The notes under the pieces are model-generated. The model had not been told where the DNA came from. It saw nothing but the letters and a program-made list of their open reading frames with translations, and ran no database searches. A stretch of 47,226 nucleotides of DNA from Oscillospiraceae bacterium (GTDB taxonomy: Bacteria; Bacillota; Clostridia; Oscillospirales; Ruminococcaceae). This document shows, in pieces, positions 2,824-20,542 of the stretch (positions within the stretch are counted from its first letter, which is position 1; every line of letters begins with the position of its first letter). The translations under genes and the position numbers were made by a program. The stretch covers positions 1 to 47,226 of the forward strand of contig JAFUWN010000023.1 of the NCBI GenBank assembly GCA_017483465.1. Direction: 5' to 3'.

Positions 2824-2828
2824 AATAA

Positions 2829-2870: not shown

Positions 2871-2892
2871 TTCAGACAGAATATTTATTACT

Positions 2893-3000
2893 GTTGCCGA
2901 TGATAGAGAAATGTTGCCAAACCGTTGCCATGATAACAGGCTGATAACGGTTTTTGGCGTGCTTACGCCCTATTTTTCGGGATGTTTATTATTCCCACTC
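2893..3000. other. Candidate attachment-site region at the guaA 3' end
   Basis: The last codons of guaA read GAGTGGGAATAA on the minus strand (2989-3000), the sequence type used as att core by many guaA-targeting islands. On the element side GTTGCC occurs three times in 37 bases (2893-2898, 2913-2918, 2924-2929), resembling arm-type binding sites for an integrase with an N-terminal arm-binding domain. A small GGCGT-GCTT-ACGCC hairpin with a T-run (2956-2977) lies between. The other end of the element is outside the window, so the duplicated core cannot be confirmed here. Confidence 0.6.
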
Positions 3001-4527
3001 AATCGTAGCCGGAGGCTTAGTAGTAACATCATAGACGATTCTGTTAACGTTTTTAACCTCATTTACAATTCTGTTTGCCGCTACTGCAAGGACATCATAC
3101 GGAATCTTAGCAAAATCGGCAGTCATGAAATCACTGGTTGTGACAGCACGGAGAGCAATTGTATAATCATAGGTTCTTGCATCGCCCATAACTCCGACAG
3201 AGCGCATGTTTGTCAGAACGGCGAAATACTGATTAATCTCCCGATCGAGACCGGCATTAGCAATCTCCTGCCGGAAAATGAAATCGGCATCCTGTAAGAT
3301 TTCAAGTTTATCGTCTGTGATTTCGCCGATAATACGAATGGCAAGGCCGGGACCCGGAAAAGGCTGTCTCCAGACCAGAACAGGAGATAAGCCTAACTCT
3401 GTACCAAGTTTACGCACTTCATCTTTGAAGAGCATTCTGAGCGGTTCGATAATTTCTTTGAAATCGACATAATCCGGCAGACCGCCGACATTATGATGAG
3501 ATTTGATCACAGCGGCATCACCTAAGCCGCTTTCAATGACATCCGGATAGATAGTTCCCTGAACCAGATAATCAACTTTGCCGATTTTCTTAGCTTCCTG
3601 TTCAAAGACACGGATAAATTCTTCTCCGATGGCTTTGCGTTTGGTTTCAGGATCAGAAACTCCACGGAGTCTGTTCATAAACTGTTCTTTTGCGTTGACT
3701 CTGATAAAATTCATACCGGAATCTTTAAAAGCGGCTTCAACTTCATCGCCTTCGTTCTTACGCATGAAACCATGATCGACAAAAATACAGGTCAGCTGAC
3801 TGCCGACTGCTTTTGCTAATAAAGCCGCTGCTACGGAGCTGTCCACACCGCCGGAGAGGGCTAACAGGACTTTTCCGTCACCGACTTTTTCACGGATATC
3901 TGCAATTGCAGTTTTTGCGTAGCCTGCCATTGTCCAGTCACCGACACAGCCGCAGACATTTTTCACAAAGCTGTCGATCATGCCTTGTCCGGCAAAAGTA
4001 TGATTGACTTCCGGATGGAATTGTACTGCATAGAGTTTGCGTTCGGCATTCTCGAAAGCAGCAGCAGGGCAGTCGTCAGTATGGGCTGTGATGCGGAAGC
4101 CGTCCGGAATTCTGGAAACATAATCCGTATGGCTCATCCATGAGGAAGCTGTTTCAGGCAGATGGATGCCGCCGAACAGAATACTGGAATTGTCATAATG
4201 AGTATCGGTTTTTCCGTATTCGGAAGTCTGACAGGCAGAAACTTCGCCGCCGAGGGTATAGGCCATAAGCTGAGCACCATAGCAGATGCCTAAGATGGGA
4301 ATATTTAAATCAAAAATATCTTTTGTGATATGCGGGGATGTTGCATCATAGACACTGTTGGGGCCGCCTGTGAAGATAATGCCTTTCGGATTCAGGGCTT
4401 TTAATTCTTCAAGAGATGTTTTATAGCTCCTGACCTCGCAGTAAACGCCGCATTCATGGACACGCCGTGCAATAAGCTGGTTATACTGACCGCCGAAGTC
4501 AAGAACAATCACTAACTGATGAGCCAT
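2989..4527 (-). CDS. guaA: GMP synthase (glutamine-hydrolysing)
   Basis: A 512-residue enzyme converting XMP, ATP and glutamine to GMP, the last step of guanine nucleotide synthesis in the cytosol. The class I glutamine amidotransferase domain (about 1-195) has nucleophile C82 in GICYGAQ and partners H171/E173 in FHPEVNH. The ATP-pyrophosphatase domain carries the P-loop SGGVDS (225-230), and the dimerisation domain ends in the usual PPATIEWE. Length and domain order are standard. The start is supported by an AAGGAAAA ribosome-binding site. It is transcribed alone from the promoter at 4570-4598. The 3' end is the probable insertion site of the neighbouring element, which leaves the protein sequence intact. 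Confidence 0.98.
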
Positions 4528-5761: not shown

Positions 5762-8700
5762 TTATTCAAAAGACCAGGAATCAAATGTAATATCGCCGCT
5801 GAACAGGAAATACAGATCTTTGCTTCCGCTGGGAGCATTGAGCACAGGAACTGTGATTTCTGTCATGCCGCCTGCCGGAATTTCTGCATAAGCAACAGCA
5901 TCACCTGTCAGACCTGTGCCGACTTTGATTGCTGCTCCGCTTGCGGAAGAAGCCTTGACTGTCATTGTCTTCGCACCGTTGGAGAAGTCTACACCGGAGA
6001 CTTTCAGCCAACTGCCCTTGCCGCCGGATACTGTAGTATCACCCAGACCGGATACGGAAATATCTTTCGACTGACTGGACATCATTTCAGCCTGATTAGT
6101 CTGGTACGGGCTGACTTTCTTCAGCTGCGGAATGCCTGTCATTGTACCGGTAACCGGATTGATCTTATCCCCTGTCATAGTGATCTGATCTACCTGCGGA
6201 CTTCTGTAGTTTCCGTCAATACCCATAGCCTTTTCTACCGGACGGGAATGATAGAACAGATATACTTTGCCGTTTAATTCTACGATAGAATGATGATTGT
6301 TTCCGGTCATGCCCGGGAAGAAGTTACCCTGATTCTTGAAGACTTCGCCTGCATAGGTGTACGGCCCAAGAGGATTATCAGCAACCATGTATTCAATACC
6401 TGCTGTGGATAATCCGTATTGATTGCCGCCTGTATTCCAGTTGGAGCAGTAAGTATAATAATACTTGTTGCCGATTCTGTTAATACCGGAATCTTCAAAT
6501 ACATACGGAGCATCGATTGTGACCGGAGTGCCGTCCAGATGAATCATATCATCAGAGAGCTTGACAACTCTGGTAGTAGAAGGCATAGCTGTCTTTCCTT
6601 CCGGAACACCGCCGCCAAATGCCAGATAACCGGTACCGTCATTATCTACAAATACAGCCGGGTCAAACAGCCACGGAATATCACCGCAGTTCGGAACGGC
6701 TCTTGTTACCAGAGGGCCGCCAAGCGGATCAGACCACGGGCCTGTCGGAGAATCTGCCGTCATAACGCAGACACCGTTACCGCCGTTGCAGAAATACAGG
6801 AAGAATTTTTCTGTTCCGTTGATGGTCTTGTGTGCAGCACACGGTGCCCAGGAGTTATTGGCAAATTTCGCAATACCATTCGCACCGGCTACCGGAATTG
6901 CACCGTGATCAGTCCAGTTGACCATATCATCAGAAGAAATGCAGTTGATTCTGTTAATTAAGCCGTAGCCGTTTTCTTTCACCTGTCCGTTGGAATCATA
7001 TTCAATCGTATCATCTGTCATGTAGACATAGACACGGCCGTTATATTCCATAACACCAGGGTCAGCACCGAAACGCTGTGTATACAGCGGATTGCTTTCG
7101 CCCTCTTTTTTATAGCTTGCAGACGGGGTGACAGAACCGAAAAGCTGTTCTAATTTTGTCACATCTACATTGACAGCGGGCTTTTCAACAACTGTGAAAG
7201 CCTTGATTCTGCCGTGCAGATAGTCTTGAATCTGCTTAATGTCTGCTGCATCCACAACACCGTTTTCATCGACATCAACAGCCTTGTTGTATGTGCCGGA
7301 AGCAGCGGCTCTCTTAGCAGCCATCAGATCGAAAATATTGATAACTTTATCGCCGTTGAAATCGCCTTTCTGATTATTTCCTGAAGGCTGTGTTGGCTGA
7401 TCAACCGGAATATCTACAGGGTCAGGCCCTTTGATGCCTGTACCTGCGACTGCACCAATCACTTCATCAATATAAAAATTATTGGTAGTTTCAGCAGTTT
7501 CAACATAAAGCTGCATATTGGAAGCATCGGCAGGAATTTTATAATTGGTATTTGCCAGCTGAACCCAGCTGCCCTTGACTCCGGCAGCTTCTGCAATAGT
7601 AGAATACTGAGTTTCTCCGGATGCATCAGTATACTGTAATTTCAGGTAGAAAATATCTGTCGCACTGCCGTCGAAATAGTTTACAATTGCACTGAAACTG
7701 TATTCATTGCCGGGAACAAATACTTTCGGACTGAGTGTTTTAGCCGCACCGTTCCAGGCGGATGTTCTGTCCTGTACGAGCAGAGATTCACTTCCGACAA
7801 AAGCAGTTCTGCCGCTTGTGCTGACACTTGCCGGCCCTCTGCCGGACCAGTCACACAGATCGCCTTCAAATCCGTCATCAAAATACCAGCCGAAGTCATT
7901 CGGTTCAACGGGCTTCACCTCGCCTGCACCGTTGCCCCATTCGGATTCCGGAATCATACTCATCAAAGTTGTATAGGCAAGTTTCGGCTGATTATTTTTA
8001 TCATAAAGCAGGGCATCAGAACCTGCTTTCAGCCAGGAGTTCGCATCGTTAGGACCCCAGATGCAGACCGCTGTCACACGGCCGTCAGATTTCGGATTTG
8101 TATTCCAGTCCATAGCCGCCTGGAAAATGGCCTTGTATTTATTGGCCTGATCTTGCAGACTATATTCACCACCGTTGAGAGAAATATCAAGCTCTGTTAC
8201 CTGTACATCACAGCCGATGGAAAGATATTTATACATTGCTTCAATATAAGAGTCAGTTCCTGCAAATCCGGTTGCATTTGCCGGAACATGAGACTGCATT
8301 CCGACACCGTCAAGCAGACCTTTCTGATAGAGAGACTTACACATATTATAGATGGCATCTCTCTTATGATCCCAGTATTCATTATAATCATTATAATACA
8401 GATCGCATCCGGCCGGAGCATATTTTCTTGCGTAGGTGAATGCCTGTTCTACAAAGCTGTTATCTCCGTAGACCTGTACCCATGCAGACTTGCCGCCTTC
8501 TACATTGTTGTCGCCGGGTTCTCTGGAACCGCCGTTATTGGCTGTTCTCTGCTGATTATCTGAAATGCACTCATTGCAGACATCATAAGCATAGAGATCA
8601 AGATTCGGATACTGCTGTTTGATTGCTCCGAACATGTTCTTGATATAGCTTTCCATACGGGCATTCATCGTATTTTTGTCTACCCATGCACCGTAATCAC

Positions 8701-9571
8701 TGAAATCGGACTTGAAGAACCAGCCCGGAGTCTGACTGTGCCATACAAATGTATGACCTCTCATAGAGATACCATTCTGAGAGCAGAAATCCATAATAGC
8801 TGCGGCACTGTTCAGAGATACACCAATATTTGTACCGCTGCACTGTGCTCTGTTGAGAGTCGCATCGGGTTTCATTTCGTTTTCGCATTCTACAGAATTG
8901 CAGTCTTTCAGAATATTGGCTGTAATAGCAGAATTCTGAACGGTTCCGCCGTTGAGAATGTTACCAACTTTGAAATAACCTGCGAATTCGTCTTTCAAAC
9001 CTTTGGCAGTACTTGCGGCCTTGGCAGTCAGAGCCTTATGATCTTTGGAAGCGATTTTTACATTATCAAACATAAAATCATTGGTACTGTCTGTGGTGAT
9101 AGTTAATCTGAATTCATAGCTGTCATCCGGAGCAGTATAATCAGCAGAAAGCTCTGTCCATTCGCCGGCTCCGGCAGATTTTGCAGTCAGTTCTTTTACA
9201 GTTTCTTCGCCTGTATTCTGGTCAATGCAGAGCAGGGAAAGTCGAAACGTTTCAGCAGTTTTGCTGTATACCTGTACGGAATAATGATATTTCACACCGC
9301 CGTATAAATAGAAGCCTTTGGAAGAACTTGCACCGTCTTCCGGAGCGGTTCTGCCGGTTACGAGCATACTTCTGGAAGCCTGATAGCCGTCTTCTACAGC
9401 AGTAAGCTGCATAGTATCGGCATTGCCGTACCAGCCGCCGTAACAGATTACAAAATCATTGTCAACGAATTCTTCGGCACGGGCGTTTTGTGTAAATTCC
9501 GGCATGAAAGCCAGTGTTCCGGAACAGCAGAGCAGTGCTGTCATACCGGCCAGAAATTTTTTAAAATTCAT
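5762..9571 (-). CDS. Bifunctional cellulosomal xylanase: CBM22-GH10-CBM22-dockerin-GH43-CBM6
   Basis: A secreted 1269-residue arabinoxylan-degrading enzyme. A signal peptide (1-32) is followed by a CBM22-like module (about 35-175) and GH10 (about 185-545). In GH10 the acid/base is E334 in YDVCNE, where WDVVNE is usual, and the nucleophile is E460 in VTELDIS. A second CBM22/CBM4_9-like module (560-710) precedes a type I dockerin (735-792; loops DFNGDKVINIFD and DVDENGVVDAAD). GH43 follows (820-1140) with D837 in GADPG, D970 in FDPAVF and E1026 in FEDSG, and then a CBM6-like module (1150-1269). GH10 would cut the xylan backbone and GH43 remove arabinose or xylose. The dockerin lies inside the protein rather than at an end. 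GGAGGG precedes the ATG. No frameshift separates the catalytic parts. Confidence 0.95.
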   Translation of the reverse strand: MNFKKFLAGMTALLCCSGTLAFMPEFTQNARAEEFVDNDFVICYGGWYGNADTMQLTAVEDGYQASRSMLVTGRTAPEDGASSSKGFYLYGGVKYHYSVQVYSKTAETFRLSLLCIDQNTGEETVKELTAKSAGAGEWTELSADYTAPDDSYEFRLTITTDSTNDFMFDNVKIASKDHKALTAKAASTAKGLKDEFAGYFKVGNILNGGTVQNSAITANILKDCNSVECENEMKPDATLNRAQCSGTNIGVSLNSAAAIMDFCSQNGISMRGHTFVWHSQTPGWFFKSDFSDYGAWVDKNTMNARMESYIKNMFGAIKQQYPNLDLYAYDVCNECISDNQQRTANNGGSREPGDNNVEGGKSAWVQVYGDNSFVEQAFTYARKYAPAGCDLYYNDYNEYWDHKRDAIYNMCKSLYQKGLLDGVGMQSHVPANATGFAGTDSYIEAMYKYLSIGCDVQVTELDISLNGGEYSLQDQANKYKAIFQAAMDWNTNPKSDGRVTAVCIWGPNDANSWLKAGSDALLYDKNNQPKLAYTTLMSMIPESEWGNGAGEVKPVEPNDFGWYFDDGFEGDLCDWSGRGPASVSTSGRTAFVGSESLLVQDRTSAWNGAAKTLSPKVFVPGNEYSFSAIVNYFDGSATDIFYLKLQYTDASGETQYSTIAEAAGVKGSWVQLANTNYKIPADASNMQLYVETAETTNNFYIDEVIGAVAGTGIKGPDPVDIPVDQPTQPSGNNQKGDFNGDKVINIFDLMAAKRAAASGTYNKAVDVDENGVVDAADIKQIQDYLHGRIKAFTVVEKPAVNVDVTKLEQLFGSVTPSASYKKEGESNPLYTQRFGADPGVMEYNGRVYVYMTDDTIEYDSNGQVKENGYGLINRINCISSDDMVNWTDHGAIPVAGANGIAKFANNSWAPCAAHKTINGTEKFFLYFCNGGNGVCVMTADSPTGPWSDPLGGPLVTRAVPNCGDIPWLFDPAVFVDNDGTGYLAFGGGVPEGKTAMPSTTRVVKLSDDMIHLDGTPVTIDAPYVFEDSGINRIGNKYYYTYCSNWNTGGNQYGLSTAGIEYMVADNPLGPYTYAGEVFKNQGNFFPGMTGNNHHSIVELNGKVYLFYHSRPVEKAMGIDGNYRSPQVDQITMTGDKINPVTGTMTGIPQLKKVSPYQTNQAEMMSSQSKDISVSGLGDTTVSGGKGSWLKVSGVDFSNGAKTMTVKASSASGAAIKVGTGLTGDAVAYAEIPAGGMTEITVPVLNAPSGSKDLYFLFSGDITFDSWSFE

Positions 9572-9919: not shown

Positions 9920-10001
9920 AAAATCAGAAAAAATTTTTTAAAATTTTCTGCAACGATTTTCAGTGACAGTTTGTATGTAGTAAGTGAAAGGGGGAATTAT
10001 C

Positions 10002-10601
10002 ATGACAAAAGAGGAATATTGTCCGGAACTACTCTATCAGAGTAATCCGGCAACAAAAGAGGGGAAAAACATGACGATCGAACAGCAGAGGCAGAAAAAT
10101 ATCTATGATACTTATTGGAAATATGTCTATACAATTGTCTTTCATATTCTCCGGAATACGGGTACAGCCGAGGATGTTGAAGAATGTATCAATGATGTTT
10201 TTACGGATGTCTTCCGGCATTATGATTTCAGTCAGAGCGATACGCTTAAAGCCTATCTCGGCACAGCGGCGAGAAATAAAGCTCTTAATGTCAGAGCGTC
10301 CCTGACTGCAAGGGCTTCTCATGTCAGAAATGCCGAAGATACAGAACTTTCTGCTGTTGCTTCTGATGAAGATATTCAGGCAGATCTTGAACAGCAGGAA
10401 TTAACAAGACTTCTGCTTGATACGATTCAGTCACTGGGGGAACCTGATGCTACAATTCTGATTCAGAAATATTTCTATCAGAGTAAATCCCGTGAAATCG
10501 GAAAAATTGTCGGATTATCCCCGATTGCTGTCCGTTCACGCTGTCACAGAGCTTTGAAGAAACTTCGTAAACTGCTCAAAGATTCCGATATTTCCGTATA
10601 A
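10002..10601 (+). CDS. ECF-type RNA polymerase sigma factor (module 1)
   Basis: A sigma-70-family extracytoplasmic-function factor of 199 residues. Region 2 includes YWKYVYTIVFHILRNTGTAE and DVEECINDVFTDVF. Region 4 has the HTH SKSREIGKIVGLSPIAVRSR followed by CHRALKKLRKLL. The start at 10002 has AGGGGG upstream. An internal ATG at 10071, also preceded by GAGGGG, aligns better with the start of the paralogue at 13080, so two starts are possible. It is followed after 23 bases by a membrane protein with extracytoplasmic DUF4367 domains, the usual partner arrangement for an anti-sigma factor. It is clearly paralogous to the sigma factor at 13080 (shared YxxYVYxIVxxIL, AEDVEEC and LGEPDAxIxIQKYxY). 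Confidence 0.92.
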   Translation: MTKEEYCPELLYQSNPATKEGKNMTIEQQRQKNIYDTYWKYVYTIVFHILRNTGTAEDVEECINDVFTDVFRHYDFSQSDTLKAYLGTAARNKALNVRASLTARASHVRNAEDTELSAVASDEDIQADLEQQELTRLLLDTIQSLGEPDATILIQKYFYQSKSREIGKIVGLSPIAVRSRCHRALKKLRKLLKDSDISV

Positions 10602-10624
10602 CTCTCAGATAAGAAGGTGTGATT

Positions 10625-12895
10625 ATGAAAAAGAAAATTTCTATGAAATATCTGCTGCAACATGCAGATTATGAAAATCTGGAACGCATTGCTAATGATT
10701 ATCCTGCTCCGGAAACCCGTAAAAAGGAACTGCTTCCGGAATATGCTGATTCTGAAACATTTGAAGTCCTGCCTATGAAGCATTCTGTCAGATGGAGTGC
10801 CGTACTTTCTGCAGCGGCGGCCTTTGCCTTTGTCTTCGGGAATGTTCTGTTATTCACGCATCTGCCGAAGCCTCAGCAACAAGCAGAAGAATCCGTTCCG
10901 GTGCAGACCGCTGTCAGCTCTCCGACAGAATCTCTTAACGAATCAGAAAAATTTCAGACAACAGCTGTTTCTGAATTCTCCGGAAAAAAATCTTCTTCCA
11001 TGACAATGAAAAATCAGCAGACAACAATTGTATCAGGAACTGAAAAAAAATCCGGAACTTCTCCGGAAACATCATCAAAAAATACTGGAAAAACAACAAA
11101 TTCTACAAAAACAACGCAGACAGAAACTGTTTCTTCAACGGCTCAGAATCAGAATCAAAACTCAATACAAGAGAATCTGCCTGTAGAAATTGTACAGTCT
11201 TCCGGACAAACGTCCGATTTTTGGCTTGAAGAGGCCGATCTTGATGAAAATGGTCTTCCGATTCTCCCCGGATTCAGAGTCAAATGGGCCAAGACAAACA
11301 ATCTCCCTGACAGTGCGATTCAGATTTTTCCTTTATTTGCTTTAAATATGCAGATTCTCGAACGCTACAGACCGAGTTATCTTCCGGAAGAATTTTCTTT
11401 CAAGGGCGAAGAAGCAGGAACGATCTATTCCGATCTCCTGAGTGTCCCCTGTGAGATTGCTCTTGACGGAAAAACTATACAGGGAAGTTTCTTCCAGAAA
11501 GCGAAAAATGCCGCAGAAGCAAGTATTGATAATGTTTCCTATAATGGAACATCCGCTTTTCTGTCCGCTGACAGTAAATTTTATCCTATAAATATTTCCG
11601 GAAATTATGGATATTTTAAAATCAATCATACAGAAATCTGTCTGAACTGGGTACAGAATGGCTATCTTTTCGGATTATGCTTCGATGATCTTCCTGTTTC
11701 TTATATCGAAGAAATGTTAAGAATTGCAGCCTCTGTTCAGCTTGAACGTTCTGCTCAGCAGCCGGAAATTGCCTCGCTCGCAATTCCGGGGTTCAGAATT
11801 GTCGATACTTACTCTAAACTCAACGGTCAGGAACAAGTATATCAGATTCAGCCTGAAAATCGTTCTGCTCCCAAGCTGATTGAAACCAGATACCGTCCTT
11901 CTTTCGTTCCGGAGGGCTTTGAACTCAAGAATTTTGCTGATCTTACGTCTTCTACAGATTGTGTCTATGCGAAAAATGATCAGAATATTATCATTTTCTG
12001 GCAATATTCCAATTGGCAGGATCTCGGCTATCTGGAATTTCATACTATAGAAAGTCTGATCTCCAATGTCAAACCCGTTACCGTCAACGGTCATTATGGC
12101 TATCTGATTAACGGAAAAATAGAGAGAGATATGGAATCTTTTGCAAGTAATTACGGCCTGGATGCAAATTATCAGTCACAGACCGGACTGCATTTAGTAT
12201 GGCTCGAAGGCGATTATGAGTTTGTGATCGGAGCAGAAGACCTCTCCGAAGAAGAAGTCATTCAGATAGCGGAGTCAATCCAGCCTATGCCAGATGTCGA
12301 AATTCAGGGCTATACAGTAAGATTCCAGAAATTCTCCTACGAAAATGAATTTGCCTATCATTTCTATGCTGAAAATATTCCGCTTCAGATTCCTAATTTT
12401 GAAAAATGGTATCAGCCCGTTACTCTGCCGGATGGCTTTTCGCTCAATACGTCTTACGGATGGGATTTCGGTACAATGGAACGCATATTATTATACGATA
12501 AAAACGGTCAGAATGCGATCATATTCAAACAGGAAACAATTGATACTGCTTACAGAATCTCAGAGAAAAACATTCAGAATGTCCGGAGCATCTCCATCAA
12601 CGGCGGAGCAGGCTATATTTTATCTTATCAGGCTGATCAGCCGGGCTTTATGGAAGTTCTGCTCGGTGGAAGCTATCAGCCTCAGAATAAGACATTCTTA
12701 TCATGGAATGACGGAAAATACGTGTTTAGCTTACAGGGAGAGGATGTTTCCGAAGAAGATTTAATCAAAATGGCAGAATCTATTGATTTTGAATATTATT
12801 CCAGATATTCAGGAGGCATTCAGAATATAGACTATGAAAAAATGATGGAAAATAATCCGTTCCCGAATAAATTCAATCCGTATGATCCGGATTAA
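10625..12895 (+). CDS. Membrane-anchored sensor/anti-sigma-like protein with three DUF4367 domains
   Basis: A 756-residue single-pass protein. A cytosolic N-terminus of about 55 residues (LLQHADYENLERIANDYPAP) is followed by one membrane helix (about 57-79), a Thr/Ser/Gln-rich stalk (about 82-200) and three extracytoplasmic repeats at about 214-373, 386-552 and 557-721. Each repeat begins with a PGFR-like motif, contains (Y)RPSYLPEEF/YRPSFVPEGF-type segments and ends SEEExIxxAESI, the DUF4367 signature found on Firmicutes anti-sigma factors. The N-terminus matches that of the protein at 13634, suggesting a common sigma-binding segment, but no zinc-binding HxxxCxxC motif is present. It presumably sequesters the preceding sigma factor and senses an envelope or substrate signal; the ligand is unknown. 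The start at 10625 follows AGAAGG; the earlier GTG (10619) is less likely. Confidence 0.85.
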   Translation: MKKKISMKYLLQHADYENLERIANDYPAPETRKKELLPEYADSETFEVLPMKHSVRWSAVLSAAAAFAFVFGNVLLFTHLPKPQQQAEESVPVQTAVSSPTESLNESEKFQTTAVSEFSGKKSSSMTMKNQQTTIVSGTEKKSGTSPETSSKNTGKTTNSTKTTQTETVSSTAQNQNQNSIQENLPVEIVQSSGQTSDFWLEEADLDENGLPILPGFRVKWAKTNNLPDSAIQIFPLFALNMQILERYRPSYLPEEFSFKGEEAGTIYSDLLSVPCEIALDGKTIQGSFFQKAKNAAEASIDNVSYNGTSAFLSADSKFYPINISGNYGYFKINHTEICLNWVQNGYLFGLCFDDLPVSYIEEMLRIAASVQLERSAQQPEIASLAIPGFRIVDTYSKLNGQEQVYQIQPENRSAPKLIETRYRPSFVPEGFELKNFADLTSSTDCVYAKNDQNIIIFWQYSNWQDLGYLEFHTIESLISNVKPVTVNGHYGYLINGKIERDMESFASNYGLDANYQSQTGLHLVWLEGDYEFVIGAEDLSEEEVIQIAESIQPMPDVEIQGYTVRFQKFSYENEFAYHFYAENIPLQIPNFEKWYQPVTLPDGFSLNTSYGWDFGTMERILLYDKNGQNAIIFKQETIDTAYRISEKNIQNVRSISINGGAGYILSYQADQPGFMEVLLGGSYQPQNKTFLSWNDGKYVFSLQGEDVSEEDLIKMAESIDFEYYSRYSGGIQNIDYEKMMENNPFPNKFNPYDPD

Positions 12896-12928
12896 AATTT
12901 AGCTTTCTTCATTTTCTTTACAGATACA

Positions 12929-12958
12929 GAAACTCCCGTGTTTCGGCACGGGAGTTTC
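12929..12958 (+). terminator. Terminator between the two ECF modules
   Basis: GAAACTCCCGTG (12929-12940) pairs with CACGGGAGTTTC (12947-12958) around TTTCGG. The following tail is only weakly T-rich, so termination may be partial, but it separates the two sigma operons. Confidence 0.7.
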
Positions 12959-13079
12959 ACTGTTGTTATAAAATTAAAAATTTTTTCAGAAATCTGTTAC
13001 ACTAAGCACAATTTTTTTGATTATATTAATGAAAGCGGATTTTGCAAATGAAAGCTTTTCAGAAATGAGGTGAATCCCT

Positions 13080-13637
13080 ATGGCAGAACATCAGCCCCGC
13101 TCTCCGGACGAGCACAGAAAATTATTTCAGCTTTACAGTAATTATGTCTATGCCATTGTATGGCGGATTCTCGGACAGGCAGGCTCATCCGAAGATGTCG
13201 AAGAATGCGTTTCGGATATTTTCGCTGAAGTCTTTTCAAAATTAGATTCTGTCTACGAAAACAGTATGAAAGCCTATATCGGCACAGTCGCCAGAAGAAT
13301 GGCTCTGAATCGCTTTCAGAAACTCACATCCGGAAAGATGAAAATAATCTCTCTGGAGGATATTTCCGTCAGCGATATGGCTTCTGATGTGAATATCACA
13401 GAGGATTATGAAAAAGCGGAACAGGCCGGAACGTTACTGAATCTGATTCTTTCACTCGGTGAACCGGATGCCAGTATTATTATCCAGAAATATTATTATG
13501 ATCGTAATTCTGTCGAAATCGCAAAAATTGTGAATTTAAATCCTGTCACAGTCAGAATGCGGCTGAGCCGTGCTCTGAAACGCTTAAGAAAATTACTCGA
13601 AGAAAATCATATCACATATGAGGAGGGATATTTATGA
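13080..13637 (+). CDS. ECF-type RNA polymerase sigma factor (module 2)
   Basis: A 185-residue ECF sigma factor and clear paralogue of the one at 10002. Region 2 shows YSNYVYAIVWRILGQAGSSE and DVEECVSDIFAEVFSK. Region 4 shows NSVEIAKIVNLNPVTVRMRL then SRALKRLRKLLEE. AGGTG lies upstream of the ATG. Its stop overlaps the start of the next gene (ATGA, 13634-13637), giving tight coupling to its DUF4367 partner. No clear vegetative promoter was seen in the roughly 120 bases before it, so it may use its own ECF promoter or read-through from module 1. Confidence 0.92.
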   Translation: MAEHQPRSPDEHRKLFQLYSNYVYAIVWRILGQAGSSEDVEECVSDIFAEVFSKLDSVYENSMKAYIGTVARRMALNRFQKLTSGKMKIISLEDISVSDMASDVNITEDYEKAEQAGTLLNLILSLGEPDASIIIQKYYYDRNSVEIAKIVNLNPVTVRMRLSRALKRLRKLLEENHITYEEGYL

Positions 13638-14941
13638 AAAAGAAATTAGATTTATCTTTATTGAAATATGCTGATTCTGCTGCGATTGAAAGAATTGCAG
13701 ATAACACACCGTCTGCTCCTGTCCGGAATATGGAGAGGATATTCCAGACAAGTGAGAAAAAATATCAGTATCGTTTTGTCACACCGGAACAGGCATTCGA
13801 TTCCGAAACATGGGAAGCTGAACCAATCAGAAGATCCGGTATTCTATTCCATACGGCTTCAGCGGCGGCTTGTTTTGTAGTTTGTGCCGGAACAGTCGGC
13901 GGAATCTATCTGCTGAATCAGAACAGACCTGTACAGGATTTACAAACTGCTGAAGTCATCGAAACGGAAGCTTCTGAACCGGAAACTGAAACAACTGCTA
14001 AACAGCCTGCTCAGGTCATGACCGAAACAGTGAAATCCACAACAGCCAAAACGACAGAAACAGTAATCAAATCAACCGAAACTCAGAAAGCCGTTACTCC
14101 GGAAACAACAGCTGTTATTTCTGAAACGAAATCACAGACAACTCAGACAAAAAACATCACGACAGAGACAGTATCAGCAATTCAGACAGAAGCTCCCGAA
14201 ACAGAACCCATCACAGAAACAATTGCTGAAATCATTCCGGAAACAGTACAGATTCTTGAAAATCAGACACAAGTCATCATTCCGGAAACAGAAGCCCCTG
14301 CTCCGGAAACACAGCCCGTCATGGAAATTCAGCTCGAAACAGAATCCGAAGAAGAAACTCCGTTCCCGGGATTCAGAATCGAAAGCGAAGAAATAGTGAA
14401 TCCGGATAACGGAATTGTAGATTATTGGGACAAAATATATCCGGCTTCTCTGGAGAATGCCGCAAAGAATTATGATGTTCTCTATGCACCGACATGGCTT
14501 CCGGACGGATGGACTTTTGAAGAGATTTCCACCGGTGATGAACTGCTTGATCAGATGCGTCAGGCAGATAAAGAATTCATGGAACAGGAAATCAGAAACA
14601 ACATGACAACTGCATATGAAACAAGTTATCTTCCGGTTGATGAGAACGGAAATTTCAGGAAAATGACAGGCAATATCGAATTTTATCAGTATCTGAAAAC
14701 AGATGACTATTTCTTCGGAATAGGTTATACTGATATCAGTTATGAACATTTCACACCTTTTACAGTCAACGGCAAAAACGGTCTGCTCGTGACATGGCAT
14801 GACGAAGACGAAAATGACGAAAGACAGAGAACTTTCTCAATTATATGGGATAACGGCGACTATGTTTTCATGGTTCAGACGTTCTCCAATACCTTTGCAG
14901 AAGCTGTCAGAGTAGCGGAATCTGTACAGCCCGTAGGATAA
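13634..14941 (+). CDS. Membrane-anchored sensor/anti-sigma-like protein with one DUF4367 domain
   Basis: A 435-residue partner of the preceding sigma factor. The cytosolic N-terminus (LLKYADSAAIERIADNTPSA) resembles that of the 10625 protein. One membrane helix lies at about 69-94, followed by a stalk of about 150 residues made almost only of Thr, Glu, Pro and Gln (TETT/ETE repeats) that could span the wall. A single C-terminal DUF4367 domain (about 253-433) starts FPGFRIESEE and ends AVRVAESVQP. The ATGA overlap with the sigma gene fixes the start. No anti-sigma zinc motif is visible. Compared with module 1, the domain count is one rather than three, so the two modules may read different ligands. 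Signal and regulon are unknown. Confidence 0.85.
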   Translation: MKKKLDLSLLKYADSAAIERIADNTPSAPVRNMERIFQTSEKKYQYRFVTPEQAFDSETWEAEPIRRSGILFHTASAAACFVVCAGTVGGIYLLNQNRPVQDLQTAEVIETEASEPETETTAKQPAQVMTETVKSTTAKTTETVIKSTETQKAVTPETTAVISETKSQTTQTKNITTETVSAIQTEAPETEPITETIAEIIPETVQILENQTQVIIPETEAPAPETQPVMEIQLETESEEETPFPGFRIESEEIVNPDNGIVDYWDKIYPASLENAAKNYDVLYAPTWLPDGWTFEEISTGDELLDQMRQADKEFMEQEIRNNMTTAYETSYLPVDENGNFRKMTGNIEFYQYLKTDDYFFGIGYTDISYEHFTPFTVNGKNGLLVTWHDEDENDERQRTFSIIWDNGDYVFMVQTFSNTFAEAVRVAESVQPVG

Positions 14942-14996
14942 TGCTTTCATAAAGAGAAAAACGCAGATAAATTATTTTCTTCACCTTTACAGACAG

Positions 14997-15028
14997 AGAA
15001 GCTCTCATGCCTTGGCATGGGAGCTTCT
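14997..15028. terminator. Terminator shared by converging genes
   Basis: AGAAGCTCTCATGCC (14997-15011) pairs with GGCATGGGAGCTTCT (15014-15028), followed on the plus strand by GATTTTT. It sits between the DUF4367 gene and the leftward transglutaminase gene. Confidence 0.85.
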
Positions 15029-15033
15029 GATTT

Positions 15034-16035
15034 TTACTTGATCTTAAATATAATTCTCAGGATATATAAATCTTCATCAATCTGATAATTGACAGAACCG
15101 CCTTTTCTTCCGGTAGGAGTTTCAAAAATTTTAGCATTCCAGAAATTTTTCTTCTCGAATAAATCTTTAAGAGCATTCTGCAAATCCCGTTTTGACTCGA
15201 ACATCATTTCGATTCTGCCGTCTTTCACATGAGAAGTCAGGAGCTTATCTATATCAGAAAATTTGTAATCTTTGAAATATAATCTGTTATGGACAAAATA
15301 ATTATCTCTGATGGATTTGCAGGACGGAAGAAAAATAGTATCTTTATCGGCTTTTCTTGTCCGGAAGAGCATATCATCATTGAGCAGAAAATAATCATGA
15401 GAAATCCATTTTGCGAACTCATTATTTTTTTTCTGACAGACAGGGTCATCCCAGGTGACATCAATCCAGTAATAATTCTGACCGAGTTTGACATAATTCC
15501 AGGCATGAGCCTCACGCTTAGCGATTCCGGAACAGATACCGGATTCTATTTTCAGATTTTTCATCAATAAATGAAACGCTTTGGAATAGCCCTCACAAAC
15601 GGCTTTCCCCTCGACAAGACAGCCATACGCAGTATGCCGGAGAGAGTTTCCGTTTGTTTTTGCTTTATCATAAACAGTTGTATTGACTAAATAATCATGA
15701 ACTGCAAGAATTTTATCATAAGCTGTCGGCTTATTGGCCGATTTCAGAGCAAGTTTGATTTTCTGATTCAATGCCGAAACCATTTTTTTAAGGACATCCG
15801 TTTTATAATGATTCAGAATCTTGAAAGTTATTTCCGCATATTCGCTGTTATACCGGACAGAATAGCCATCAATCCAGAAAATTTCCGGATAATTCTGCTC
15901 TAATAATTTCACAGCGGATTCGATATTTTTAATATCTATTTTTTTATGAAATATAATACATTCCTGATACTGCGACAGAGCTTTATAAAATTCTTCGCAG
16001 AGCACTTGAATTTCCAGTTCTTTTTTAGAAAGCAT
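15034..16035 (-). CDS. Transglutaminase-like protein lacking a signal peptide
   Basis: A 333-residue protein with the transglutaminase/cysteine-protease fold. Catalytic C147 is in GKAVCEGYSKAF, H177 in EAHAWNYV and D192 in YYWIDVTWDDP. The family includes secreted protein cross-linkers and peptidases. It is a tandem duplicate of the lipoprotein at 16056; the two share the order HDYLVxxTxYD, HTAYGCLV/STAYGCLV and the catalytic boxes. Unlike that protein it begins directly with MLSKKELEIQVLCEE and has no signal peptide or lipobox. The 20-base gap upstream leaves no room for a longer N-terminus. GGAG lies before the ATG. Substrate is unknown; an intracellular role or a decaying copy are both possible. 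Confidence 0.85.
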   Translation of the reverse strand: MLSKKELEIQVLCEEFYKALSQYQECIIFHKKIDIKNIESAVKLLEQNYPEIFWIDGYSVRYNSEYAEITFKILNHYKTDVLKKMVSALNQKIKLALKSANKPTAYDKILAVHDYLVNTTVYDKAKTNGNSLRHTAYGCLVEGKAVCEGYSKAFHLLMKNLKIESGICSGIAKREAHAWNYVKLGQNYYWIDVTWDDPVCQKKNNEFAKWISHDYFLLNDDMLFRTRKADKDTIFLPSCKSIRDNYFVHNRLYFKDYKFSDIDKLLTSHVKDGRIEMMFESKRDLQNALKDLFEKKNFWNAKIFETPTGRKGGSVNYQIDEDLYILRIIFKIK

Positions 16036-16055
16036 GTGAATCTCCTGTTCTGTAG

Positions 16056-17246
16056 TTAGGGATTGACAGTAAAGATTAGTCTGAGAACATACATATCTTC
16101 ATCTGTCTGATAATTGATTGTCCCGCCTGTTGCCTGAAAAATCTGAGCATTCCAGATGGTTTCGCTGTTGAACAGATCGTTGACAGCCATCTGATAGGCT
16201 TCCGGAGTCGAGAACATAATTTCAATTCTGCCTTCGGACTGATGTTCTGTCAGTCTTCTGTCAATTTCAGAAAAATAATATTCTGTGAGATAATTGCCGT
16301 TCCGGACAAAATAATTTTCATCCAGTGAAGCACACAGTGGTACAAACTGACCATTGCTGTCAAAAGTTCTGCTTCTGGCAAGCATTCTGTCATCAATCAG
16401 AAAATAACCGTGATGAATCCAGTCGAAATTATAATTTTCCGAAACAGGATCATCCCAAGTGACATCAATCCAGTAATACTGGCCGTTCAGATTAATATAA
16501 TTCCAGGCATGTGCCTCACCTTTGGCATTCCCCGAGCAGATCCCGCATTCAATACCCATTTTATTCATGAGTATCTGAAATGCCTGTGAATATCCCTGAC
16601 AGACTGCCGAACCGTTTACAAGACAGCCGTATGCTGTACTCCAGAGACCTTTGCCCTTGCTTACAGCGGACTGATCATATTCTGTATGCTGTACAAGATA
16701 ATCATGAACCTGCAAAGCTTTTTCATAATCAGAAGCAGAAAGATTGATCTGCTCCAGAACAGCATTTGCCGTCCGGTCAAGTTCCTGAGACATCTGCCGG
16801 AGAGTATCGATAGAATAATTATCCATGATTTTCAGTGTAATTTCGGCAGAAACGTCATTGTATTTCATAGAATAGCCGTTAATCCAGAAAATTTCGGGGT
16901 GTTCCCATTCCAGTTCGGTAATCGCCGCAGAGATTTCATCTTTTTCTATTTTTCTGTCGAATTGAATCAAAGAATGAAACTGGCTGATTTCCTGATATAA
17001 TTCATCAGACAGAGAGAGAGTCTCTGAGACAGAAGCTGTAATTTCCGGTACAGATTCAGTTTCACGAGGGGGGAATGTCGGCTTGATTTTTTCCGTTTCC
17101 GGTGAAGTCATTTCGATATAATCCGGATAGTCTGTTGTAGCCATCGGCATCAGATCAGCTGTGATTTCTACAGCAGAAGAACAGCCTGTCATCATCAGCA
17201 TGATACAGAAGAAAGAGGAAAAAAATAAATTCTTTTTCAATACCAT
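16056..17246 (-). CDS. Transglutaminase-like lipoprotein
   Basis: A 396-residue exported protein. The N-terminus MVLKKNLFFSSFFCIMLMMT ends in a lipobox LMMTGC with C22 as the lipidated cysteine. A Thr/Pro/Glu-rich tether of about 50 residues follows, then a transglutaminase-like domain with C216 (GSAVCQGYSQAF), H247 (EAHAWNYI) and D261 (YYWIDVTWDDP). It would sit on the outer face of the membrane and act on surface proteins or peptides. Neighbouring genes encode other secreted dockerin proteins. GGGAGG precedes the ATG, and a consensus promoter lies at 17279-17307. The next gene downstream is its paralogue. Confidence 0.9.
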   Translation of the reverse strand: MVLKKNLFFSSFFCIMLMMTGCSSAVEITADLMPMATTDYPDYIEMTSPETEKIKPTFPPRETESVPEITASVSETLSLSDELYQEISQFHSLIQFDRKIEKDEISAAITELEWEHPEIFWINGYSMKYNDVSAEITLKIMDNYSIDTLRQMSQELDRTANAVLEQINLSASDYEKALQVHDYLVQHTEYDQSAVSKGKGLWSTAYGCLVNGSAVCQGYSQAFQILMNKMGIECGICSGNAKGEAHAWNYINLNGQYYWIDVTWDDPVSENYNFDWIHHGYFLIDDRMLARSRTFDSNGQFVPLCASLDENYFVRNGNYLTEYYFSEIDRRLTEHQSEGRIEIMFSTPEAYQMAVNDLFNSETIWNAQIFQATGGTINYQTDEDMYVLRLIFTVNP

Positions 17247-17278
17247 ATCCCTCCCGTAAAGTAAATAATTCTGTTTTT

Positions 17279-17307
17279 AATATAACATATTTCAGAAAGC
17301 TTGTCAA
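17279..17307 (-). promoter_or_regulatory. Promoter of the transglutaminase pair
   Basis: Minus-strand TTGACA (17302-17307) and TATATT (17279-17284) with a 17-base spacer. A TTTTCAACA half-site (17313-17321) lies 5 bases upstream of the -35, the same word found at the LRR-dockerin promoters. Confidence 0.8.
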
Positions 17308-17333
17308 GAGAATTTTCAACAGATTTCACAAAA

Positions 17334-17364
17334 AAGCTGACCGATTTATAAAATCGGCCAGCTT
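17334..17364 (-). terminator. Terminator of the LRR-dockerin gene
   Basis: AAGCTGACCGATTT (17334-17347) pairs with AAATCGGCCAGCTT (17351-17364). On the minus strand the stem is followed by a T-run, so it ends the gene at 17380. Confidence 0.85.
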
Positions 17365-17379
17365 AGATTTCTTTTTTGA

Positions 17380-18873
17380 TCAGTCTGTCAGAGAAGCAGT
17401 AATCCCGACAATATATTTCAGAATCATCAGGGATTCTTCAGAATCGGGTTTTCCGTTGCTGTTGAAGTCGATCGCTTTGAGCTGTTCGGGAGAGAGCGTT
17501 TCTTTTCCCATGGCGGCTTTATTGATCGTGATGACATCTAAAACATTGATTTTTCCGTCTCCGGAAGCATCGCCCTGTTTGAGTTCTTCTGTTTTTGGTT
17601 CTGTTGTGTCAGGTTCTTCATCGAGAAGAGCAAACTTAAAGCCATATTTTTCAGCATATACCTGAGCAGTTGAACCTTCATAGCCATAAAGTGTACCATT
17701 AAATTCAATATTCCCTCCTCCATCAACTTCACCATAAATTGTATATCCGCTATCTTCAATTTCACAATTGGGATTTTTAAAGATAATGCTGTCCAGATTA
17801 GAACACTTAGCAAGTGACCACTTTTCAATACTTGTTACATTGTGCGGAAGTGTTATGGAAGTTAGCTCAGAGCAGCCAAAAAATGCACTCTCTCCTAGAC
17901 TTGTTACACTATCTGGAATGACAATGGAGGACAAAGCAGAACATTCTTTAAATGTATTACTGTTAATAGCCTGCACACCATCTGGAATTGTCACAGAAGT
18001 CAGGCTGGTACATCCCAAAAATGTAGCATCTCCAATATCAGTCACACCGGAAGGAATTGTTACAGAACTTAAATTTGTTTGAGAAAATGCATAACTTCCA
18101 ATCCTTTTTATGCTGTCTGGAATAATAATAGTGGAAAGCCCAGAACCACAAAATATACTATATTCAATACTTGTCAAACCATCTGGAATAGTAATGGTAG
18201 TCAAAGACGGGCAATAAGCAAATGCATATGCTTCAATCTCTGTTACACTTTCTGAAATTGTCACAGAAGTCAGATTTTCACAGCCAGAAAAAGCACTTTC
18301 TGAAATTTTGGTGACAGTATCTGGAATCGTATAAGATTTGTCCTCTTTTCCTGCCGGATAACGTATCAATTCTGTTTTATCTTTATTAAATAATACGCCA
18401 TCTTCACTGGAAAGTGTAGGATGTGTATCAGAAACAAAAATTTGTTTTATTTCCGTACAGTGTCCAAAAGCCCCTATTCCAATAGAATCATCATTATTAT
18501 TAGACCTAAGAATCCGGGTTCTATAACCATCTGATTTTGTGTTTGCATAACAAAAAAATGCACCATTTTCAATTGTTGTTAGTGTATCTGGAAGAGTTAA
18601 AGAAGTAATATCAGTACAATTTTCAAATGTCCCCTGTCTAATATGTTTTACAGGCAATCCGTCAATTTCTTCCGGAATGACGAGTTCTCCTGTAGGTTCT
18701 TCTACATAGCCTGTAATTTCAATATAATCTGCATATTTTCTATAAGACAGATTTTCATAAGTATCCTCTGCATTAGCTGAAATCACAGCCGTTTCCTGCA
18801 TTGGAAGCACAGGCACAACAGAAACCATCATACACAGAGCCGAAACAACAGCAAGCATTTTTTTCATTCGCAT
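17380..18873 (-). CDS. Secreted BspA-type leucine-rich-repeat protein with C-terminal dockerin
   Basis: A 497-residue protein. The signal peptide MRMKKMLAVVSALCMMVSVV leads to a long LRR_5 (BspA/Treponema pallidum type) array with repeating motifs such as LTSVTISESVTEIEAYAFAY and TSLTSVTIPDGVQAI. A type I dockerin fills about 431-495 (GDASGDGKINVLDVITINKA and DFNSNGKPDSEESLMILKYI). LRR_5 proteins usually bind host or bacterial surfaces, or substrate. The dockerin would place this one on the scaffold. Codons in the LRR part (TCTGGA, GTTAC-rich, low GC) differ from the TCCGGA-rich neighbours, suggesting transfer or recombination of the repeat region. AGGAG lies 10 bases before the ATG. It is driven by an unusual promoter with an adjacent inverted repeat. 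Confidence 0.92.
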   Translation of the reverse strand: MRMKKMLAVVSALCMMVSVVPVLPMQETAVISANAEDTYENLSYRKYADYIEITGYVEEPTGELVIPEEIDGLPVKHIRQGTFENCTDITSLTLPDTLTTIENGAFFCYANTKSDGYRTRILRSNNNDDSIGIGAFGHCTEIKQIFVSDTHPTLSSEDGVLFNKDKTELIRYPAGKEDKSYTIPDTVTKISESAFSGCENLTSVTISESVTEIEAYAFAYCPSLTTITIPDGLTSIEYSIFCGSGLSTIIIPDSIKRIGSYAFSQTNLSSVTIPSGVTDIGDATFLGCTSLTSVTIPDGVQAINSNTFKECSALSSIVIPDSVTSLGESAFFGCSELTSITLPHNVTSIEKWSLAKCSNLDSIIFKNPNCEIEDSGYTIYGEVDGGGNIEFNGTLYGYEGSTAQVYAEKYGFKFALLDEEPDTTEPKTEELKQGDASGDGKINVLDVITINKAAMGKETLSPEQLKAIDFNSNGKPDSEESLMILKYIVGITASLTD

Positions 18874-18895
18874 AAAATATTCTCCTTTTTCGACA

Positions 18896-18959
18896 AGTTT
18901 TCAACAGGAATTTAAACTCTGTTGAAAACTATTATACTCAAAAAAAAAAAAATACAAGT
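18896..18959 (-). promoter_or_regulatory. Promoter with T13 spacer and inverted-repeat operator (LRR-dockerin 1)
   Basis: On the minus strand ACTTGTA, a run of 13 T and GAG precede TATAAT (complement of 18931-18936). Right after the -10 comes a perfect 12-base inverted repeat, AGTTTTCAACAG (18896-18907) and CTGTTGAAAACT (18919-18930), covering the expected start of transcription. The same T13 spacing and TTTTCAACA words recur upstream of the LRR gene at 23324. The position over +1 suggests a repressor operator; an RNA hairpin is the alternative. Confidence 0.6.
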
Positions 18960-19000
18960 GCTTCCGGAAATTTCCTGAAAAAAATCTGTTTTTTAAACAA

Positions 19001-19027
19001 AAAAGCCCTGCCGCAGCAGAGCCTTTT
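19001..19027 (-). terminator. Terminator of the dockerin gene at 19037
   Basis: On the minus strand AAAAGGCTCTGC pairs with GCAGGGCTTTT around TGCG, with one bulge and one wobble pair, followed by T residues. Confidence 0.75.
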
Positions 19028-19036
19028 TATTAAAAA

Positions 19037-20542
19037 TTATTCTGTCAGAGAAGAAGTAATACCAATGACATATTTTAAGACAGCAAGAGAATCCTCAGCA
19101 TCAGGAACGCCGTTCTGATTCACATCCGCAGAATTGAGCTGAGTATCAGTCAAGGAATCTTTTCCGATAACGGCTCTGTTGATCTGGATCGCATCAACAA
19201 TATTGATATTACCATCCGGAACGGCATCACCGACAGCGGCCGCAAGGCAGATAAAATAACCGAATTTGGAGCTGACGGGGAATTTTTCGATCTGATCGGC
19301 AGTCAGAGTGGCATAGAGTTTACCGTTTCTTTCGGAAGTAACGGAAATGCCTTTTTCTCTGAGGCGATCGGCTTCAGTCTGCGTATATTTCTGATCGAAG
19401 ACTTCTAATAAATAATTTTGCTGTTCCTGAACGATCTGAGAAACCTGCAAACCGAGTTCTTTGCTGATCTGCTGACCGGCAGCATCAGCAGCATAGAAAT
19501 CAGACATAATATCGGCATAAGATATGTTATCAATAAAATGTGTCGTAAGAAATTCCTGTTTTTCGTCAGTGAGCCGATCAATATCGCCATAAGGCTGAAT
19601 TACAACACCGAATTTCGCATCCGGATAAGCATAGATCAGACCGCTGACGAGTTCAGAACAATCGAAAGTTCCGGCATTGGGGACATATTCTTCTGTAATC
19701 TGATCTTCGAGGATTCTGCCGTCATAGCTGGTAGAGGTATAATAGAATGTATCATCAGCAGAGCGGGAAAACATACCGTCATAGTATTTCAATTCCGCAG
19801 GGGTATGAGAGAAAGTATGTTTTGCTTCTTCATCGGGGTCATATTCGAGGAGAGAGGCGAGGCAGATACGATAGCTTATTTTAGGATTCACAGGAAAATT
19901 TCTGATCTGATCAGCAGTAAGATAGGCCTGATAGCCATAATAATTCGGCCGAGGTTCGAGCATATTCAGACCGGCTTCTTGTAATCTTTGATATTCGCCG
20001 TCAAGCTCCTGAGAAGCCAGACTCCAGACATAATCTTTAATTTCGTTTTGGATTTTATAAGCTTCAAGAACAGTCTGTACTTCTTCTTCGGAGAGAGTCT
20101 GCATAGCTTCATGGGCTTGAATGAGTGGTTCTGTTTCAGCAAGAAATTCGGCATAAGTTTTGCCATTGAAAGTATGTTCCTGCATGTATTGTGTTTTGAG
20201 ATCATCATAAACAGAATCGACATAGCAAGTCGTAATTTTGATAGAAAATTCAGCATCAGGATATTGAGCAAGAAGTGTATTCAGAAGAGAACTAAGCTGA
20301 TAAGTTCCGGCCGGAGGGGTATAGACAGTGCCGTCTTCATTCAGAGGGATATAGTCGCTTTGTGTTTTGAGGGAGAAATAGATCAGATTTTCATCAGTCA
20401 CAGTATAGACATCTTCGATCGGATAAGTATAATTTCCGGCCTGAAAGACATCAGATTGAGAATCCTCAGCGGATAAGGGCAGAGCTGTCAGAGAGCAGAC
20501 AAGCATACTAAGAGCACATAAAGCAGAGAATAATTTTTTCAT
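19037..20542 (-). CDS. Secreted two-module protein of unknown function with C-terminal dockerin
   Basis: A 501-residue protein with signal peptide MKKLFSALCALSMLVCSLTA. Two related modules of about 190 residues follow. Each contains an AGTYQLSSLLNTLLAQYPDA / AGTFDCSELVSGLIYAYPDA segment, a helical glutamate-rich middle, and a closing motif LTADQIRNFPVNPKISYRIC / LTADQIEKFPVSSKFGYFIC. I do not recognise the module family. The type I dockerin is at about 438-501 (PDGNINIVDAIQINRAVIGK and DVNQNGVPDAEDSLAVLKYV) and is nearly the same class as those at 17380 and 27620. The first dockerin loop lacks the usual GDANGD and reads GDAVPDGN. A clear AGGAGG precedes the ATG. It is a likely novel scaffold-borne protein; enzymatic activity cannot be predicted. 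Confidence 0.88.
   Translation of the reverse strand: MKKLFSALCALSMLVCSLTALPLSAEDSQSDVFQAGNYTYPIEDVYTVTDENLIYFSLKTQSDYIPLNEDGTVYTPPAGTYQLSSLLNTLLAQYPDAEFSIKITTCYVDSVYDDLKTQYMQEHTFNGKTYAEFLAETEPLIQAHEAMQTLSEEEVQTVLEAYKIQNEIKDYVWSLASQELDGEYQRLQEAGLNMLEPRPNYYGYQAYLTADQIRNFPVNPKISYRICLASLLEYDPDEEAKHTFSHTPAELKYYDGMFSRSADDTFYYTSTSYDGRILEDQITEEYVPNAGTFDCSELVSGLIYAYPDAKFGVVIQPYGDIDRLTDEKQEFLTTHFIDNISYADIMSDFYAADAAGQQISKELGLQVSQIVQEQQNYLLEVFDQKYTQTEADRLREKGISVTSERNGKLYATLTADQIEKFPVSSKFGYFICLAAAVGDAVPDGNINIVDAIQINRAVIGKDSLTDTQLNSADVNQNGVPDAEDSLAVLKYVIGITSSLTE

Follow-up and report, generated by a model that had tools for sequence, protein, structure and literature searches.

The window analysed in this study (the whole 47,226-nucleotide stretch, positions 1 to 47,226 of the forward strand of contig JAFUWN010000023.1 from an Oscillospiraceae bacterium) carries at 9949-15028 two modules arranged head to tail, each combining a gene for an extracytoplasmic function (ECF) sigma factor with a gene for a membrane partner. 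All their features are on the plus strand: sigma factor 1 (10002..10601) and anti-sigma protein 1 (anti 1, 10625..12895), and sigma factor 2 (13080..13637) and anti-sigma protein 2 (anti 2, 13634..14941). The locus raises the question of whether these partners, in which Pfam finds neither a zinc anti-sigma domain nor any other known anti-sigma model, control the sigma factors, by which part, and in response to what. We consider it likely, with considerable confidence, that the pairs are two autoregulated ECF sigma factor/membrane anti-sigma factor switches. The N-terminal motif of the partners is very probably an anti-sigma domain without a Pfam label, working like the two-helix class II domains.

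An N-terminal motif paired with ECF sigma factors

A scan with sigma factor 2 returned 106 relatives, of which 80 loci (71 titled Ruminococcus) were kept. The next open frame after the sigma gene encodes an early hydrophobic segment in all 80 loci, and a second one in two. A motif profile (47 positions, 44 rows) was drawn from these loci and searched irrespective of sigma genes. With the own genome included, the motif was found in 34 of 38 genomes of the same genus (E 1e-3; 91 of 92 places were used, G020:C131 being left out), in 5 of 197 across the family (E 1e-6; 4 of 125 genera) and in 3 of 295 across the order (E 1e-5), one of which lies beyond the family. Across the phylum, 1 of 398 genomes had it, namely the own genome (E 1e-5), and 6 of 11 genomes of a related genus matched at E 1e-5. 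The motif family is largely limited to Ruminococcus and its relatives. A search of plasmids gave two distant matches only (29%), and no account of the family was found in the literature by title, abstract start or passage, with subscription papers and supplements outside the scope of that search.

A sigma gene stands directly upstream on the same strand in 115 of 117 distinct motif matches, and the other two end at a contig edge. Further genomes added 30 loci and 80 stretches among the matches listed, and all loci pooled gave 266 distinct sigma/anti pairs versus 4 rows without a sigma gene (two contig ends, and one gene present in two loci, an extra anti gene that follows a complete pair). Both the persistence of the motif beyond its own genome and its adjacency to ECF genes, which the first-pass annotation of the window had anticipated, were thus observed. 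R. flavefaciens 007c has at least 19 motif matches and FD-1 at least 7. In R. flavefaciens Y1, a second anti-sigma-like gene lies right after a complete pair (L043, ca. 1955-3140; the same gene in L312), and in other genomes, too, two motif genes lie less than 4 kb apart, as in L148 (G030:C25), G516:C82 and G512:C6.

Covariation between motif and sigma factor was assessed by mean-field coupling analysis of all 266 pairs (effective number 196; columns with less than 30% gaps; sigma residues are numbered as in sigma factor 2 throughout). The strongest sigma/motif coupling reached 2.89, compared with a maximum of 1.12 over 12 permuted pairings. Because permutation also strips shared descent, the transmembrane columns of the same proteins served as a second control, and their couplings reached 1.21. 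The seven strongest pairs all join the sigma factor to motif residues 1-46. Helix 1 of the motif couples with sigma residues 121, 124, 131, 137, 159 and 161, and also with 32-36, while helix 2 couples with residues 12, 13, 45, 49 and 52, and also with some of region 4 (e.g. 168). Sigma R13 and anti E34 form a charge-swapping pair; when charges were correlated position by position, positive and negative values were about equally strong (up to 0.49 for either sign), and R13/E34 alone was used.

A linked-chain model was obtained from the relative L293, in which the sigma and anti genes lie in one frame, folded with 56 such rows. It had a predicted template modelling score (pTM) of 0.80 and a mean predicted local distance difference test (pLDDT) value of 85.7. 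The motif part forms two main helices (206-215 and 221-237) and a one-turn helix, and both main helices fall within blocks of high mean pLDDT (91-96 for residues 201-230, 84 for 231-240). A fold search with this model returned ordinary ECF sigma factors and no informative sigma/motif arrangement. The covariation and the confident model of L293 support a sigma-motif interface. The first-pass annotation had assigned sigma binding to the N-terminal segment and regarded it as an unlabelled anti-sigma class; conservation, pairing, covariation and the linked model together support this well.

Several points weigh against this reading. The transmembrane columns hold 10 of the 50 top couplings, and much of the coupling list is therefore background. 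The division of the helices between sigma regions (helix 1, 8 couplings with region 4 and 5 with region 2; helix 2, 14 with region 2 and 7 with region 4) was not significant (Fisher p 0.16; p 0.39 and 0.44 at other depths). The linked model represents the relative L293 and no window pair, its chain linkage forces nearness, and it was judged by confidence scores and a fold search. Its prediction is poor at the motif start (191-200, mean pLDDT 63) and beside the membrane (241-250, 49), and none of the solved chains among the 50 matches listed has a closely similar domain arrangement (best TM-score by target 0.45). Much of helix 2 is missing from anti 1. The pairing counts start from motif proteins or pairs, so that motif-less sigma genes do not enter them.

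The two modules, their predicted promoters and a base-residue code

Both window sigma factors have regions 2 and 4 (Sigma70 r2/r4; sigma70-ECF) and no region 3 by Pfam, which is the ECF layout; region 2 of sigma factor 1 lies 0.6 bits below the Pfam cut-off. The start of sigma factor 1 was taken as ATG 10002, with ATG 10070 as a possible alternative; a script set the starts of its orthologues L141 and L131 at the place matching 10070. The two sigma factors are only 47% identical, and the pair was therefore not recently duplicated. They were the only close ones among 11 sigma-like matches in their own genome, the remainder having 21-29% identity or being short (41% over 44 residues, 32% over 66).

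Anti 1 (756 amino acids, counted from ATG 10625) and anti 2 (435 amino acids, overlapping the sigma factor 2 stop by 4 bases) each have one hydrophobic segment by hydropathy, at 10799..10855 (residues 59-77) and 13859..13915 (residues 76-94), respectively. The predicted sigma-binding segment of anti 2 (13634..13774), in a position that covaries with the sigma factor family-wide, matched the motif profile with E 5.8e-16, and that of anti 1 (10625..10759) did so with E 1.5e-10 in the own genome, each sequence being itself a row of the profile. Three DUF4367 stretches of anti 1 exceeded the Pfam cut-off (PF14285, E 4e-19). Repeats 1 (11264..11749) and 3 (12302..12796) were assigned by Pfam and a local profile, and repeat 2 (11783..12292), whose structure was predicted, by the local profile. 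The single domain of anti 2 (14363..14938) scored 16.6 bits versus a Pfam cut-off of 22.1; it carries the DUF4367 sequence signature and is placed in that family by an alignment and by a local profile for which anti 2 was one of the seeds, and it also clusters with the same ectodomains. Hence, of the earlier description of ECF sigma factors paired with single-pass proteins bearing motif, stalk and DUF4367 domains, both pairs were confirmed, while the motif of anti 1 keeps its first half and has a second half shorter than the family consensus, and the DUF4367 domain of anti 2 falls below the cut-off.

Promoters were examined for the 259 of 266 pairs with sufficient upstream DNA. A two-block element, TGTnACAcTTT and YGAwTrTAww separated by 12 bases, stands upstream of the family sigma genes; scores above 8 were reached upstream of 208 of 259 sigma genes and in 2 of 259 shuffled sequences, the former count being generous because the matrix was trained on the same sequences. 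In the window, the predicted promoters are TGCAACGATTT-N12-TGTATGTAGT for pair 1 (9949..9981, matrix score 11.0) and TGTTACACTAA-N12-TGATTATATT for pair 2 (12995..13027, score 13.8). They were the only window sites scoring at least 10 (0 expected from 10 shuffles), and sites above 8.5 at 23954 and 37663 were near the shuffled level (1.2 expected). Terminator-like hairpins, each a consensus match only, follow at 12929..12958 between the modules (13 pairs) and at 14997..15028 after module 2 (14 pairs). The modules thus look like separate transcription units, each with a predicted promoter and a terminator-like hairpin of its own.

For 192 of the 259 promoters, selected by a site score threshold, promoter bases were compared with sigma residues. 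Covariation linked the free -35 base to residue 160 in region 4 (z 17.5) and the opening base of the -10 block to residue 77 in region 2 (z 13.5). Among the top 20 base/residue associations, 10 joined -35 to region 4, 9 joined -10 to region 2 and 1 was of another kind. In an independent test, each of 74 sigma families was represented by a single sequence, and the tested bases were excluded from site finding. None of 2000 permutations reached either association, whereas the crossed pairings were null (reached in 922 and 480 of 2000 permutations). Counted by family, residue 160 goes with the free -35 base as follows: K with C (16), Q with C (4), M with T (15) or G (7), S with A (11), V with A (10) or T (5), and others (six). 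Residue 77 goes with the first -10 base, D with C in 32 of 35 families and N with T in 25 of 29. Both window modules obey this code, since sigma factor 1 (S, N) has a promoter with A and T, and sigma factor 2 (M, N) one with T and T. The shared promoter and the base-residue covariation argue for autoregulation, in which each window sigma factor would read the promoter of its own operon. It is usual for an ECF sigma factor to read its own promoter (PMC3817407), and the code is a new detail and not a new principle. It predicts which sigma factor matches which promoter and could also help to build orthogonal switches.

Candidate targets, ectodomains and a working model

Module 1 adjoins, on the minus strand at 5762-9571, a gene for a xylanase with glycoside hydrolase (GH), carbohydrate-binding module (CBM) and dockerin domains (GH10/CBM_4_9/dockerin/GH43/CBM_6). 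The minus-strand genes at 15034-20542 encode two transglutaminase-core proteins, one LRR_5-dockerin protein and one dockerin protein. This setting had been thought to fit a role in plant-fibre sensing; however, no family promoter stands before the xylanase (best score 0.8), and dockerin genes, present at 15 of 50 loci and in 3 of 20 control stretches, were not significantly enriched near the pairs (p 0.24). The test loci were 50 loci of at least 12 kb from the sigma factor 2 scan, in assorted genomes; the controls were stretches of R. flavefaciens-like genomes picked by hand at round coordinates, and a sequence pattern served to count dockerins. A weak site (score 6.0; 95th percentile of random stretches, 5.1) lies less than 300 nt upstream of the dockerin gene at 20542 (minus strand) and has a C at the code position, which suits neither window sigma factor. 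In the own genome, the promoter pattern had 5 matches (the sigma factor 2 promoter and four sites within open frames) versus 3 for the reversed pattern, which weighs against the proposed switches.

A stricter pattern matched 64 sites across 15 R. flavefaciens-like genomes, none of them in FD-1, and its reversal matched 12. Twenty of the 64 precede family sigma genes. A further 20 distinct non-sigma sites were kept (an open reading frame of at least 150 amino acids at a distance of 20-130 nt, the site outside frames of at least 200 amino acids, identical proteins merged), and the remaining 24 were left out. Of the 20 non-sigma sites, 18 precede exported proteins, which account for 54 of the 160 baseline frames (p 1e-6); a dockerin motif followed 6 of 20 versus 2 of 160 (p 2e-5), although the dockerin sites are not independent because five of the six are homologous genes in five genomes. 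The other predicted targets include a VanY carboxypeptidase, a LytR-CpsA-Psr protein, two papain-type proteases, a leucine-rich repeat protein, a YunB-like protein and lipoproteins. At the pattern positions, the boxes of the dockerin gene are the same as those of a sigma gene of the L239/L218/L226 type in G521, G522 and G534, and deviate from them at two positions in G520. This type of sigma factor is a candidate regulator of the dockerin gene.

Proteins from five different genomes (L335, L327, L333, L364 and L391) are exported, have WKYQ-type repeats and a C-terminal dockerin-like motif, and are encoded behind a family promoter. Pfam recognised Dockerin_1 in L335, L327, L364 and L363, and not in L391 or in L333, which is truncated at the locus end. 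The domain types encoded at 15034-20542 of the window resemble the predicted targets L363 and L390.

Hydropathy gave one hydrophobic segment in 254 of the 266 family proteins and more in 12. Grouping of their outer parts gave 49 clusters; 26 of these have a single member, in some cases a fragment. DUF4367 was tried and rejected as a marker of the class, as it was present in only 42 of 266 proteins after four profile rounds. Pfam matches in 82 proteins (E 0.05) included IseA in 12 (best E 1.5e-8), DUF4367 in 4, and M23, PASTA and RseB in one each, besides other single matches. No CBM or GH domain occurred among 25 of the 28 Pfam families listed for these 82 proteins, or by Pfam in the representatives of 30 of the 49 clusters, which gave few matches above cut-off (SecDF_P1_head and Big_14). 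Eleven odd partial matches in L120, two of them over cut-off (BtrH_N and Rpf1_C), were set aside. The structure predicted for the DUF4367 domain (pTM 0.85) was most like BT_1490, RseB and PsbP, all weakly and none under E 0.001. On the basis of the ectodomain matches, the cell's own envelope appears to be the likelier source of the signal.

We propose the following working model. In the resting cell, the cytosolic N-terminal segment, with two main helices and no zinc motif, would grip its own sigma factor at regions 2 and 4, while one transmembrane helix and a Thr-rich stalk would hold the DUF4367 domains at the wall or beyond it. A change at these domains, for which the envelope or surface layer of the cell itself is the most likely site, may then lead to cleavage of the anti-sigma protein and release of the sigma factor. 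Once free, the sigma factor would use its own promoter to transcribe its operon, and would probably also transcribe further genes for surface proteins. An M50 (site-2-type) protease is encoded in the own genome (E 3e-61); such proteases occur almost everywhere, including all of the control genomes (14 of 14), which reduces the weight of this finding for the proteolytic step.

Alternative explanations and known systems

The first-pass annotation held that the DUF4367 repeats sense a wall or plant-fibre ligand, in a functional parallel to sigma-I/RsgI. In that explanation, the ectodomains would bind plant polysaccharide and the sigma factors would activate xylanase and cellulosome genes, as an ECF counterpart of sigma-I/RsgI. 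The family promoters before dockerin proteins in R. flavefaciens-like genomes are in its favour, as are the many motif matches in 007c and the scarcity of RsgI_N in such genomes, with at most one match each (6 of 12 genomes, 2 over cut-off; e.g. L399 and L400). Besides, two adjacent genes of R. albus 7, for an ECF sigma factor and a transmembrane protein, which are candidate relatives of the family, were up 8.8- and 8.2-fold on cellulose versus cellobiose (PMC4300822); if these genes are indeed family members, the biomass explanation gains weight. At the window locus it is not supported, because no CBM or GH domain appeared in the ectodomains examined, the xylanase has no family promoter and the dockerin neighbourhood is not significant. 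Moreover, the other predicted targets include envelope proteins (VanY, LytR-CpsA-Psr), and FD-1, a classic cellulosome strain, lacks any match to the stricter pattern. We regard biomass sensing as doubtful for these modules, while some paralogues in R. flavefaciens-like genomes may be linked to the surface apparatus for plant degradation.

It is also unlikely that the N-terminal segment belongs to class I (ZAS-type) as a strongly diverged anti-sigma domain and does not form a separate class. Class I domains frequently lack zinc, and very diverged ones would evade a sequence search. However, HxxxCxxC was present in the first 90 residues of none of the 266 family proteins, which agrees with the earlier observation that a zinc anti-sigma domain is lacking, and the 25 of 28 Pfam families listed for the 82 members contained no known anti-sigma domain. 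The motif profile had no match among Protein Data Bank (PDB) sequences (best E 0.57), CnrY included. In addition, the L293 model has two main helices, whereas class I domains bind region 2 through a fourth helix (PMC7406223). A further alternative, in which the membrane proteins encoded downstream merely accompany the sigma genes as activators or as independent surface receptors, draws on the want of a recognised anti-sigma homologue of the motif. The position of the genes, the single transmembrane segment and the covariation with sigma regions 2 and 4 match the dual interface of the known anti-sigma classes, which contact these same two surfaces (PMC7406223), and make this alternative very improbable. 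Two autoregulated anti-sigma switches thus remain the preferred reading, and the motif may enlarge the short list of known anti-sigma classes. The sigma factors could already fall in a published ECF group; ECF262, for example, has a Ruminococcus albus reference (PMC8999054).

Among the known classes, the nearest likeness is to class II, whose CnrY of Cupriavidus is described as a short cytosolic two-helix segment with helix 1 on region 4 and helix 2 on region 2 (PMC7406223). The couplings found here lean the same way, although the split is not significant. Unlike CnrY, the present proteins have wall-spanning ectodomains and a motif without a sequence match to it, and the linked L293 model bears no close resemblance to CnrH (4cxf_A, TM-score by target 0.45). 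The domain was filed as working like class II and outside class II membership. RsiV and RsiP (ECF30), anti-sigma factors of Firmicutes ECF sigma factors, carry DUF4179 beside the membrane (PMC6066255). In the present family, DUF4179 occurred in 1 of 82 members, weakly (E 0.009), and Pfam found none (PF13786) in the two window anti-sigma proteins. RseB is a separate protein, whereas DUF4367 is fused to the anti-sigma protein here; the weak fold likeness of the DUF4367 model to RseB/MucB (RseB E 0.004, TM-score by query 0.35) possibly reflects just a shared sheet. Sigma-24C of Clostridium thermocellum is an ECF sigma factor. Its membrane partner Rsi24C has a GH5-like module and was proposed to be a biomass sensor (PMC3990059), unlike the present proteins, which have a different ectodomain.

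We know of no established account of how R. flavefaciens adjusts its surface. In such bacteria, the family now offers a large set of sigma/anti pairs unlabelled by Pfam, with predicted promoters, a code and candidate targets, which makes this question directly testable. The sigma-I/RsgI systems of C. thermocellum are likewise sets of paralogous sigma factors and single-pass anti-sigma factors with varied ectodomains (PMC3990059, PMC11557425), and according to a 2024 survey, the use of a dedicated suite of RsgI sensors is confined to cellulosome producers of the Acetivibrio type (PMC11557425). The present sigma factors differ in being of the ECF type, RsgI_N is absent from the window proteins and from their own genome (0 matches), and the ectodomains examined have no CBM or GH domain. 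Taken tentatively, as a prospect that we rate possible rather than probable, this ECF switch family, expanded in Ruminococcus, with its own anti-sigma class, 49 ectodomain clusters, a two-position promoter code separating paralogues and some members controlling dockerin surface proteins, may be the missing counterpart of sigma-I/RsgI in the cellulosome bacteria of the rumen.

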